NCBI GenBank assembly: GCA_026645945.1
Contig: JAPKMO010000033.1
Location: forward strand, 1-40,452
Reading direction: 5' to 3'
DNA length: 40,452 nt
From: Anaerolineae bacterium
GTDB taxonomy: Bacteria; Chloroflexota; Anaerolineae; Aggregatilineales; Phototrophicaceae
The position numbers and the translations under genes are program-made. Under the pieces are notes generated by a model. That model made no database searches, was not told the origin of the DNA, and saw only the letters and a list, made by a program, of their open reading frames with translations. The stretch's first letter is position 1. Each line of letters opens with the position of its first letter. Below, piece by piece: positions 5,928-39,450 of this stretch.

Positions 5928-6023
5928 CGGGAGTAGATGGGAGTCGAACCCATCGCGGCCTGCTCGGCGCAGCCCGCCGCCGGTTTTGAAGACCGGGGCA
6001 TCCACCGGGACACATCCACCCCC
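5928..6023 (-). tRNA. selC: tRNA-Sec (anticodon TCA)
   Basis: Folded by hand on the minus strand. The 8-bp acceptor stem pairs GGGGGTGG with CTACTCCC (two G-U pairs), with discriminator G. The D-stem is 6 bp (GTGTCC/GGATGC). The anticodon arm is CCGGT-CTTCAAA-ACCGG with anticodon TCA. A long variable arm of about 26 bases follows, then the 5-bp T-arm ATGGG-TTCGACT-CCCAT. The 8+5 acceptor/T helix, 6-bp D-stem and TCA anticodon are the hallmarks of bacterial selenocysteine tRNA. Length is 96 and CCA is not encoded. A TATAAT at 6035-6040 sits 11 bases upstream. It implies that the organism makes selenoproteins; no selA, selB, selD or selenoprotein is in this window. Confidence 0.95.
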
Positions 6024-36399: not shown

Positions 36400-37413
36400 A
36401 TGTACCGAATCCGCCCCTGGCTGTATATCGGCAAATACCGGGAAACGATTGATCGGGAACTGCTGCGCGCGCATCGCATCGGCGCGATGCTGCTGCTGGC
36501 CGAAAACATCGAACAGCCGGGCGTTGAAGTGCTGTACCTGCCGGTTGAGGACGGCGAACCGCTGCCGGACGATGCCCTCCAGCGCGGGGTGGCCTTCATC
36601 CGGGCGCAAAAAGCCGCCGGTCGCGCCGTCCTGGCGGCCTGCGGCGCGGGCATCAGCCGCTCGGTGACGTTCGCCACCGCCGCCCTGGTGGAAGAAGAAG
36701 GGTTAAGCCTGGTGGATGCCTACCGGGCGATTCAGGTCAACCACCCCTACGCTATGCCGCATCCGGCGCTGTGGGAGTCGCTGCGCGCGCACTACGGGGC
36801 GGATGTCAGCTTTGGCGAGATGTGGGACCACATGAAAAAATTGCGCGGCCTGGGTATCGAAACGAACGCCGCTTTCCCCGCCCTGGAAACCGAACGCCTG
36901 CTGCTGCGCCAGTTGGAAATGGCCGACGCGCCCACCATACAAGAACTGGCGGGGCATCCGGCCATCGCCGCCACCACGCTGAATATCCCGCATCCCTACC
37001 CGGATGGCGCGGCGGAAGCCTGGATTCGCCGCACGCACGAGGCTTACGAGCGAGGAGAAGCATTCGTGTTCGCCATCGTTCGCAAAACCTCCGGCATTTT
37101 GCTGGGGACTATCCGGTTAGGCGTCCAGCGGGAACATCTGCGCGGCGAACTGGACTACTGGGTCGGTAAGCCCTACTGGGGGCAGGGTTACGCCACCGAA
37201 GCGGCGCGCCGGGTGATCCGGTTCGGCTTCCAGGAGCGCCAGCTTAACCGCATCCACGCCGCTTATTTCACCACCAACCCGGCCTCGGCGCGCGTGATGC
37301 AAAAAGCCGGGATGAAATATGAGGGCATCATGCGGCAGCACATTCGCAAAAATGGTGACTGGATAGACCTGGGTTTGTACGGCCTGCTGCGTTCGGAATA
37401 TACCGAGGGCTGA
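36400..37413 (+). CDS. Fusion of dual-specificity phosphatase-like domain and GNAT acetyltransferase
   Basis: 337 residues. N-terminal 1-150: dual-specificity phosphatase-like, with WLYIGKYRETIDRELLRAHRIGAML and the P-loop CGAGISRS (C81 to R87, C-X5-R). The residue before the Cys is Ala, where His is usual, and VEDGEPLP holds the likely general-acid Asp51. Residues 162-333: GNAT domain of RimJ/RimL type, with ALETERLLLRQLEMAD, the CoA-binding WGQGYATEAARRVIRFGF (260-277) and NPASARVMQKAGM. It would dephosphorylate one substrate and N-acetylate another; targets are unknown. No frameshift separates the halves, so the fusion is real unless the assembly is wrong. Confidence 0.88.
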   Translation: MYRIRPWLYIGKYRETIDRELLRAHRIGAMLLLAENIEQPGVEVLYLPVEDGEPLPDDALQRGVAFIRAQKAAGRAVLAACGAGISRSVTFATAALVEEEGLSLVDAYRAIQVNHPYAMPHPALWESLRAHYGADVSFGEMWDHMKKLRGLGIETNAAFPALETERLLLRQLEMADAPTIQELAGHPAIAATTLNIPHPYPDGAAEAWIRRTHEAYERGEAFVFAIVRKTSGILLGTIRLGVQREHLRGELDYWVGKPYWGQGYATEAARRVIRFGFQERQLNRIHAAYFTTNPASARVMQKAGMKYEGIMRQHIRKNGDWIDLGLYGLLRSEYTEG

Positions 37414-37424
37414 AAATGCAGGCA

Positions 37425-37445
37425 GCCTCCGGGAATACCGGAGGC
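37425..37445. terminator. Hairpin terminator after the fusion gene
   Basis: GCCTCCGG-GAATA-CCGGAGGC, 8 perfect pairs, 12 bases after the fusion gene stop. It probably ends that transcript. It also lies at the far end of the minus-strand small unit and could act for both. Confidence 0.65.
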
Positions 37446-37462
37446 CGCCTATCTTCTCAGAC

Positions 37463-37502
37463 CTAGCGGGTGAGGGTGCCACCTAACAGGCACACACCCT
37501 AG
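37463..37502 (-). terminator. Long hairpin at the end of the small transcription unit
   Basis: On the minus strand CTAGGGTG and CACCC(G)CTAG form the outer stem; inside, GTGCC and GGCAC form the upper stem around TGTTAGGT. It spans 40 bases and lies 13 bases after the mini-ORF stop. There is no T-run, so it may be an RNA-stabilising end, a processing site or a regulatory structure. Confidence 0.5.
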
Positions 37503-37514
37503 AGCGTGGTCAAA

Positions 37515-37547
37515 CTAGGGGGACACCTCCACCATAGTCTTTTTCAT
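37515..37547 (-). CDS. Ten-residue mini-ORF MKKTMVEVSP
   Basis: ATG AAA AAG ACT ATG GTG GAG GTG TCC CCC TAG. The start is preceded by AGGAGG (37555-37560), 7 bases away, the strongest ribosome site in the region. A promoter (TTGACC-18-TATGTT) lies upstream. The flanks GTGGTC (37550-37555) and GACCAC (37506-37511) are exactly complementary and could close a stem around the whole ORF, sequestering the ribosome site. After the TAG the same frame stays open for about 22 codons, so a read-through or decayed longer peptide is possible. Not recognised. A regulatory leader, a secreted peptide precursor or a structured RNA are all open. Confidence 0.5.
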   Translation of the reverse strand: MKKTMVEVSP

Positions 37548-37582
37548 AGGACCACCTCCTCTCACTAGCCGACGATGTGGTT

Positions 37583-37612
37583 AACATAACACACAATACT
37601 CGCGCCGGTCAA
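37583..37612 (-). promoter_or_regulatory. Promoter of the mini-ORF unit
   Basis: TTGACC (37607-37612), an 18-base spacer and TATGTT (37583-37588), on the minus strand. Transcription would start near 37576 and give a leader of about 29 bases before the ATG. Confidence 0.55.
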
Positions 37613-38483: not shown

Positions 38484-38616
38484 CGAACCATATCCTGTTT
38501 TCACTATTAAACTCTGTGATTCTATATTACCGCCCCTAGGCAGTCTTCGCCACTTCTGCGCCACAAAATTCCCCGTCCGGCCATGATCTGTGCTACTATT
38601 ATCGCGCGAGGTGAAC

Positions 38617-39450
38617 ATGACGCTTAAAAGCCGGCTCGAAGAATACCAGATCGTCCCCAAAAAGAGCCTGGGGCAGAACTTCCTGCACGACCCCAACGCG
38701 CTGGAGAAAATCGTCACGGCGGCGGAGCTGATGCCGGAGGATGCGGCGCTGGAGATCGGCGCGGGCCTGGGGCAGCTTACCGAACGGCTGGCGGCGGCGT
38801 CCCGGCGCGTGGCCGCCATCGAGATAGACACGCGCTTTAAACCGGCGCTTGATCGCGTCGCGGCGGCCTGCCCGAACGTGCATATCATCTACCAGGATGT
38901 GCTGGCGGTAGACGTGGCCGCCCTGTTTTATCCAGAATCGTATGTGGTGGTGGCGAACGTGCCGTATTACATCACCACCGCCATCCTGCGCCACCTGCTG
39001 GAAACCCGCCACCGCCCGCGCCGCCTGGTACTGACCATCCAGGTCGAGGTGGCCGAACGGCTGGTGGCGCAGCCGGACGATATGAGCATCCTGGCTGTCA
39101 GTGTGCAGTTTTACGGACGCCCGCAGATCATCACGCGGCTGAACCGCGCCGTGTTCTGGCCGCGCCCGGACGTGGACAGCGCCGTTGTGCGGATAGATAC
39201 TTACGAAACCCCGCCGGTGGACGTGCCGGACGAGGCGGCGTTTTTCCGCGTGGTGAAGGCCGGCTTCGGGCAAAAACGCAAGCAGCTTAAAAACGCGCTC
39301 GGCAGCGGCCTGGGGCTGAACGCCGGTCAAACGGCGGCGCTGCTGGAAGCCGCCGGGGTTGACCCGCGCCGCCGCGCCGAAACGCTGTCTCTTGATGAAT
39401 GGGCGGCGCTGGCGCGGAATCTGGCTGCTTTAACGGCAGGGGGGAATTAA
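38617..39450 (+). CDS. rsmA: 16S rRNA dimethyladenosine transferase
   Basis: 277 residues from ATG 38617 (GAGG 5 bases upstream). KKSLGQNFL (15-23) is the family start, EIGAGLGQLTERL (46-58) is SAM motif I and NVPYYITTAIL (114-124) is the N-I-P-Y-type catalytic motif, here NVPY. The C-terminal RNA-binding part (FRVVKAGFGQKRKQLKNALGSGLGLNAGQTAALLEAAGVDPRRRAETLSLDEWAALA) is complete. It dimethylates two adenines near the 3' end of 16S rRNA during small-subunit assembly. The next gene starts 1 base after its stop. Confidence 0.97.
   Translation: MTLKSRLEEYQIVPKKSLGQNFLHDPNALEKIVTAAELMPEDAALEIGAGLGQLTERLAAASRRVAAIEIDTRFKPALDRVAAACPNVHIIYQDVLAVDVAALFYPESYVVVANVPYYITTAILRHLLETRHRPRRLVLTIQVEVAERLVAQPDDMSILAVSVQFYGRPQIITRLNRAVFWPRPDVDSAVVRIDTYETPPVDVPDEAAFFRVVKAGFGQKRKQLKNALGSGLGLNAGQTAALLEAAGVDPRRRAETLSLDEWAALARNLAALTAGGN

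Follow-up and report, generated by a model that had tools for sequence, protein, structure and literature searches.

The window, by which we mean the whole 40,452-nt stretch of DNA that was analysed, comes from a bacterium of the class Anaerolineae. On its minus strand, positions 37576–37413 are, to judge from the sequence, a stand-alone RNA gene of about 164 nt with a promoter, an extended Shine–Dalgarno (SD) sequence, an ORF of ten codons, a hairpin and a terminator (Table 1). By its boxes the promoter is of the sigma-70 type, and transcription is predicted to start near 37576, which gives a leader of about 16 nt before the SD. The AGGAGG core of the SD (37560–37555) lies 7 bases from the ATG (37547–37545). 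Upstream, on the same strand, there is a gene for a LysM/SH3 protein, and its ORF stops about 50 bases before the predicted RNA start. A first-pass annotation of this DNA had described a promoter, an SD, an ATG, ten codons and a TAG on the minus strand, and a re-reading of the sequence found all of them at the claimed spacing. The exact complementarity that it had seen between GTGGTC (37555–37550) and GACCAC (37511–37506) was borne out, and the SD is indeed without any larger ORF to account for it. The hairpin after the stop is also present, and beyond it lies an additional terminator hairpin with a T-run (37450–37413). The predicted fold of a 168-nt stretch beats 200 of 200 shuffled sequences (z −4.23).

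Table 1. Features of the RNA gene and of its convergent neighbour in the window.
Feature	Position	Strand	Basis or remark
−35 box TTGACC	37607–37612	−	Sequence
−10 box TATGTT	37583–37588	−	Sequence; 18-base spacer from the −35 box
Extended SD AGGAGGTGGTC, complementary to the 16S 3' tail	37550–37560	−	14 contiguous pairs to GAUCACCUCCUUUCU, G-U included
Micro-ORF, ten codons MKKTMVEVSP + TAG (37517–37515)	37515–37547	−	Frame kept in homologs
Helix S2, 5' arm (3' part of the ORF + stop codon)	37515–37537	−	Covariation; window position from the predicted fold
SD-complementary segment GACCACGCTC	37502–37511	−	Window variant GACCAC, exact complement of GTGGTC
Apical hairpin within S2, containing most of the SD-complementary segment	37493–37508	−	Minimum-energy fold only
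Helix S2, 3' arm	37463–37486	−	Pairs with the ORF arm (covariation and fold)
Intrinsic terminator, hairpin + TTTT	37413–37450	−	Sequence; separate from the hairpin after the stop
Convergent fusion of dual-specificity phosphatase and GNAT acetyltransferase	36400–37413	+	Pfam PF00782 + PF13302

In Rfam 15, no family reaches its gathering cut-off at the RNA. The window has only matches to the selenocysteine tRNA, the gene for which lies at 5929–6023 on the minus strand (RF01852; ARAGORN anticodon tca). The best permissive Rfam match at the RNA is a miRNA model with an E-value of 0.43. Nor was any Rfam family found in 20 homolog loci or in 5 loci of the look-alikes described below.

Distribution and genomic surroundings

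Using a DNA search, we found homologs in the genus and the family of the window. A model based on sequence only matched 60 of the 98 own-family genomes at E 0.01. This search is independent, whereas some of the genomes matched by the covariance models had fed those models and are therefore not independent tests of them. When helix S2 was included in the model, 99 of the order's 154 genomes were matched at E 0.01. The third covariance model (R3), built on 68 homologs, matched 98 of the 154 at E 0.001, namely 88 of 98 genomes in the own family (f1), 4 in f4 and 2 each in f6, f8 and f7. Neither the S2 model nor R3 matched anything in the order's families f2, f3 and f5. In the own genus all 17 genomes were matched, that of the window included. 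Of the 98 genomes matched by R3, 96 have a single match. Two matches at contig ends in G069 are perhaps one locus assembled twice, and in G010 a weak antisense match lies over the same place as the RNA match. The S2-model search also gave a second weak match in G007 (E 0.004).

For the comparisons below we used 94 homolog rows, that is, 94 of the 99 genomes matched by the S2 model. Left out were G067, which was not fetched, G154, where a contig end cuts the RNA, and three f7 genomes, which were treated apart. These three (L223, L224 and L225) carry a diverged version with 17-codon frames, VFESVKTSALGYLRSIN, VFQADMPSALGFLHSDN and LVGIRSTSAVVHLLTEE. Judged by eye, they keep the promoter, the SD, the start, the 17-codon frame, a CCUCC in an internal loop of a long hairpin, and the terminator. 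They are weak matches of 23–26 bits, close to the 21 bits of a chance-like site, and their place in the class rests on this anatomy. The first-pass annotation had proposed looking in relatives for the stems, the start, the stop and the peptide. A covariance-model search of the order and the comparison of homologs showed that the stems and the frame are kept and the peptide is not.

The homologs also look like genes of their own. Searching with a loose pattern that had no shuffled control, we found correctly spaced −10 and −35 boxes in 77 of 91 distinct homologs, and in 73 of these 77 the −10 box begins 27–31 nt upstream of the SD. Terminator-like sites follow in 76 of the 91 by a first scan and in 87 by a looser one, in which one or more arms were wrong (L035). 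In 29 loci the next ORF downstream was called by a simple rule; it is on the opposite strand in 19 and shares the strand of the RNA in 10. In genera g9 and g22 a common kinase-like gene stands 137–188 nt downstream on the same strand; elsewhere the downstream genes differ. No conserved downstream gene was found in the 29 loci examined by the simple ORF rule or in the 46 examined for GNAT. Of the 46 loci of at least 1500 nt, the window included, 23 have a GNAT gene convergent to the RNA; these belong to genera g1, g17 and g11, which points to a common ancestral locus. The first-pass annotation had offered, among other readings, a small RNA and a leader. The former agrees with a promoter of its own at a near-constant distance from the SD, a terminator and the lack of a conserved downstream gene among these loci. 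A leader controlling a downstream gene does not agree with the absence of a conserved same-strand gene in 29 loci and the convergent GNAT.

Several side observations were made in the neighbourhood. Taken separately, the two halves of the phosphatase–GNAT fusion have downstream, convergent matches in 8 of 46 loci (phosphatase) and 23 of 46 loci (GNAT). A gene for a KsgA-type rRNA adenine dimethylase (PF00398) lies at 38590–39450 on the plus strand of the window, roughly 1 kb away from the RNA. The E. coli enzyme acts next to the 16S tail. The linkage is probably incidental, because it is present in 5 of 46 loci, all of the same genus. Downstream of many homologs (e.g., L055, L066, L071, L119), terminator hairpins that are unrelated in sequence often have a loop such as GGCTAAYCC or GACTCTAC in common, which may be a terminator loop motif general to these bacteria.

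We also searched outside the order. In 396 genomes of the class, the own order included, model R2 gave 27 matches at E 0.001, 26 of them in the order and one in G363 (E 2.6e-4), where an SD-like site is present and the other features of the RNA are absent by eye. In 400 genomes of the phylum, R3 matched only the own genome, another of the own family (G030) and G623 (E 1.7e-6); the last match is a low-complexity G/C run adjoining N. Neither search thus gave a convincing match outside the order. Both of these searches used stricter filters, with which weak matches are lost. The pattern SD...CCTCC occurs at 15 places in 13 of the 396 class genomes, and a backward control occurs in 2 genomes. Under R3, the place in the f7 genome G096 scores 23.2 bits and the others at most 21.3. 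A scan of GTDB contigs with a pattern gave 24 stretches. Seventeen carry the labels Anaerolineae, Chloroflexi, Chloroflexota or Aggregatilineales, and each of them scores at least 47 bits under R3. The other seven comprise five look-alikes (L139 and L146–L149, 24–29 bits) and L142 and L153 (18 and 13 bits). Viral contigs gave no match to the same pattern.

The look-alikes are labelled Phycisphaerae (two), Pirellula, Gammaproteobacteria and uncultured bacterium. By eye they show a 13-nt extended SD, a frame of 10–13 codons (e.g., MMNECDCMWGSHC and MCSSCMIGGLAT), a hairpin and a terminator-like site. The ORF rule described below is passed by six of the seven stretches under other labels, against 0.06–0.29 for each when gap letters and lengths are randomised; one of the six, L153, resembles coding DNA. 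An S2-like helix is better than in shuffled sequences in L147 and L149 (0 and 2 of 300 shuffles as good). In four other stretches, 128 (L139), 46 (L146), 139 (L148) and 205 (L153) of 300 shuffles were as good. L147 and L149 are the two Phycisphaerae stretches, close relatives of each other. The look-alikes may reflect homology, transfer or chance, and we kept all five outside every count. The gammaproteobacterial one is possibly mis-binned, because its label stems from the metagenome set COS2, in which a Chloroflexi match was obtained as well. If genuine, the look-alikes may widen the class far beyond the order.

Shine–Dalgarno sequence, reading frame and helix S2

The assembly of the window has no 16S end, and we took the tail from the same genus, where the 16S end GGCTGGATCACCTCCTTTCT was read in four genomes. 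The SD pairs with this tail over 13–15 contiguous nt (G-U included) in 81 of the 94 homologs, and the exact core GGAGGTG is present in 92, L050 and L052 being the exceptions. The SD hardly varies among the homologs. The perfect 13-mer GATCACCTCCTTT is rare, with 49 places in 46 of the 98 family genomes. Thirty of these places are this RNA, ten are the 16S end and five are neither and coding-like (the other four were not read). In the window, the SD has G-U pairs in place of the exact 13-mer. The energy of the SD:16S duplex is −25.0 kcal/mol in the window and −22.8 kcal/mol on average in 89 distinct rows. Comparison of the sequences shows that the SD covers most of the 16S 3' tail. By this complementarity, the RNA is a putative ribosome-binding RNA.

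A start codon 2–9 nt after the SD core, followed by an ORF of 9–13 codons, was found in 92 of the 94 homologs. We took as the frame the first start with a frame of 8–14 codons. Shuffled sequences treated by the same rule passed in 6.7 of 94 rows on average, with a maximum of 13 in 200 rounds. The ORF has 9, 10, 11, 12 or 13 codons in 38, 17, 16, 19 and 2 rows, respectively. In the 92 rows the start is ATG (52), GTG (25) or TTG (15), and the stop is TAA (38), TAG (37) or TGA (17). The rule picks what is probably not the true start in some rows, e.g., in those reading LIMLGSKGATL and LCQVAVIWG. The exceptions to the rule are L062 (21 codons) and L158 (19 codons). In L158, of family f8, the frame runs through the hairpin and its stop lies inside the 3' arm. 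A first stop at codon 8–14 occurs in frame 0 in 92 of 92 rows and in the other two frames in 10 and 13, a comparison that favours frame 0, by which the rows were picked.

The peptide behaves differently from the frame. The 92 rows encode 61 different peptides when GTG and TTG starts are read as M, and 63 when they are given as V and L. In each of the four length classes tested (9, 10, 11 and 12 codons), variation is highest at codon position 2, and none of the four shows an excess of third-position variation, unlike the pattern of a conserved peptide. The E/G/R swaps in the peptide stem from purine changes in the S2 arm. In L053 the conserved core is read in another register, and the frame still closes after 12 codons. 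Local likeness exists, such as [ST]MV[EGR]V within the own genus or xGxKG[AV] outside it; the ORFs of the homologs have no run of one amino acid. It turned out, on sequence comparison, that the frame is conserved rather than the peptide it encodes, which does not fit the peptide regulator suggested at first. The same holds for the read-through or the decayed longer peptide that was considered compatible with the open frame after the stop. In the window this frame stays open for 21 codons to a second TAG, but in 89 distinct homologs the run to the next in-frame stop has a median of 12 codons and reaches at least 20 codons in 33. These data suggest that being read by the ribosome, rather than making a peptide, is the job of the RNA.

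Helix S2 is formed by the end of the ORF, which in most rows includes the stop, and a strand further downstream. The stop lies in or just after the 5' arm of S2 in most rows. In an alignment-free test with 36 homologs, the arms pair with their own partners at a mean of −25.9 kcal/mol, against −20.0 kcal/mol for permuted partners, and none of 10,000 permutations was as good. The alignment A4 (68 rows) has 143 double-change cells against 61.1 ± 6.3 after shuffling (0 of 500 as good) and 28–73 in slid controls; it was fitted to its structure by the model and leans towards it. A plain MAFFT alignment of 36 rows has 42 such cells against 25.4 after shuffling (0 of 500), and its −1 slide reaches 50. 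The three base pairs of S2 helix 1 hold in 54% of cells. The fold z-score is below −2 in 61 of 89 rows for the S2 region and in 45 of 89 for the whole RNA, which are modest values. Judged by covariation beyond column make-up and slid controls, this is a conserved structured RNA. The idea of a leader with translation-dependent structure thus stands as to anatomy, in that the 3' half of the ORF and its stop form one arm of a covarying helix. In 90 of 92 rows, the distance from the start codon (its first base) to the beginning of S2 is 10–16 nt, with a median of 13 nt; the lower end is a floor, as the search began at +10. An initiating ribosome ends about where S2 begins.

After the stop there is often a segment complementary to the SD. 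In the 35 nt that follow the stop, the motif CACCTC is present in 54 of 92 homologs, where shuffled sequences give 2.15. The other 38 rows do not have it, and the window carries the variant GACCAC instead. The longest SD-complementary run after the stop measures 7.3 nt against 6.4 nt in shuffles, a modest excess. The predicted SD:segment pairing, with a mean of −12.4 kcal/mol in 89 distinct rows and −15.5 kcal/mol in the window, is weaker than that of the SD with 16S. In the folds examined, the segment sits in an apical hairpin or an internal loop and is partly paired. The SD:segment pairing and S2 cross, and therefore they would form either a pseudoknot or two alternative states. From its sequence, the segment appears to be an internal mimic of the 16S tail, often present.

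The ribosome as a possible partner and rival explanations

Conservation extends to the SD, to the start and stop codons, to S2 and often to the anti-SD mimic, but not to the peptide or the downstream gene. The simplest reading is that the ribosome is the partner of the RNA. We propose that this stand-alone structured RNA engages ribosomes and works via the starting, reading and ending of its micro-ORF, and not via the peptide, with a probability of roughly 0.5. Without a ribosome, the SD would pair with the SD-complementary segment and the RNA would be closed. A free 30S subunit would outcompete the segment for the SD and dock, with the start codon in place and S2 abutting. Translation of the frame would then melt S2 and free its 3' arm and the C-rich segment. 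In this way, the RNA could read out or hold free initiating ribosomes, and its output could lie in ribosome occupancy or in the released C-rich segments. More tentatively, and at odds clearly below even, it may represent a new housekeeping-like class that gauges or buffers free initiating ribosomes, in which the start site is a decoy matching the 16S tail, the anti-SD mimic shuts it, the 30S subunit opens it and translation resets it.

The RNA could also be a trans-acting antisense sRNA, with a C-rich, anti-SD-like seed (CACCTC, or CCCACCC of the S2 3' arm) that would bind the SDs of mRNAs, while the micro-ORF would gate or protect it. The roughly 25-fold excess of CACCTC over shuffles, the place of the segment in an apical hairpin or internal loop, and the stand-alone gene with a terminator are all consistent with this. 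The seed is, however, partly paired in the folds examined, and it shows no specificity, because CACCTC could pair with nearly every SD. This reading would also leave the match to 16S and the conserved frame without an explanation unless translation gates the RNA. We regard such an sRNA as doubtful but possible.

A dual-function RNA that serves as the gene for a functional micropeptide is unlikely. Such a gene would fit the conservation of start, stop and SD in 92 of 94 rows, and also the local likeness between peptides. Against it speak the number of peptides, 61 in 92 rows at lengths of 9–13, the variability of codon position 2 together with swaps that come from purine changes in the S2 arm, and the other register of L053, closed after 12 codons. 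A peptide hormone, a stalling peptide and a type I toxin are likewise not favoured, because the peptide is not conserved.

We consider it very unlikely that the RNA is a transcription attenuator or a translational leader of the downstream gene, even though its short ORF, competing pairings and terminator resemble those of amino-acid attenuators. The same-strand first ORF in 10 of 29 loci and the kinase-like gene of g9 and g22 would suit a leader, but not the opposite-strand ORF in 19 of 29 loci or the convergent GNAT in 23 of 46. The antiterminator signal is also absent: in 87 rows with terminator arms, some of them wrong, the pairing of the arms with the upstream RNA of the same row is no better than with that of other rows, and 4685 of 5000 permutations were as good. 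The peptides, moreover, lack a run of a single amino acid. Least probable of all is a purely structural RNA whose SD and ORF are by-products of conserved pairing: the unconserved peptide and the position of much of the ORF within S2 would agree with it, but not the stop at codon 8–14 in frame 0 of all 92 rows, picked though they were by that frame (10 and 13 in the others), nor the use of all three starts and stops where shuffles pass the same rule in 6.7 of 94.

Relation to known RNAs and significance

We compared the proposed ribosome-engaging RNA with known systems. tmRNA is a small RNA that rescues ribosomes and has a short reading frame used by the ribosome, and the RNA described here likewise carries a short frame for the ribosome, but it has its own SD and start, and no tRNA-like domain was found in it. 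No RF00023 or ARAGORN match to tmRNA occurs here, and a separate tmRNA lies at G000:C5 (147 bits, over the cut-off). 6S RNA imitates a nucleic-acid site, the promoter, of a core machine, RNA polymerase. The likeness is in the idea of a small RNA that mimics the site of a core machine. There is no RF00013 match here, and a separate 6S RNA lies at G000:C59 (69.7 bits, over the cut-off). Translation of the lambda bar minigenes loads ribosomes, and the C-rich loops of the C-rich sRNAs of Staphylococcus bind SDs; the RNA may resemble both in these respects. To our knowledge, no stand-alone, order-wide translation start site is known that matches the 16S tail almost completely and whose frame, but not its peptide, is conserved. 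Among the entries listed from open-licence papers, no description of this RNA was found.

Three further systems were compared. The rnTrpL/peTrpL system of Sinorhizobium is a leader-peptide attenuator with a trans-acting product (PMC7298713). Such attenuators share with the RNA a promoter, a short ORF, competing helices and a terminator, but the RNA has no conserved downstream operon, regulatory codon run, antiterminator signal or conserved peptide. The downstream-peptide motif/yfr6 lies in the 5' UTR of an ORF in which synonymous changes indicate a conserved coding sequence (PMC2864571). Both are conserved structured RNAs linked to a short ORF for which no product is known; here, in contrast, the ORF is inside the structure and only its frame is kept. 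In Staphylococcus aureus, extended-SD start sites also pair with the tail of the 16S rRNA past the usual core (PMC13009471). These sites belong to ordinary mRNAs and leader peptides, whereas here the site belongs to a stand-alone conserved RNA.

The conservation pattern suggests that a short ORF can be selected for being translated and not for its product, which matters for the reading of small-ORF surveys. If the RNA binds ribosomes, then whether bacteria sense or buffer free ribosomes with an RNA becomes a testable question. If the decoy reading is true, the look-alikes labelled Planctomycetota and Gammaproteobacteria would make the RNA older or more mobile than one order. An RNA that gauges ribosomes would, if true, stand to the ribosome as 6S RNA does to RNA polymerase.
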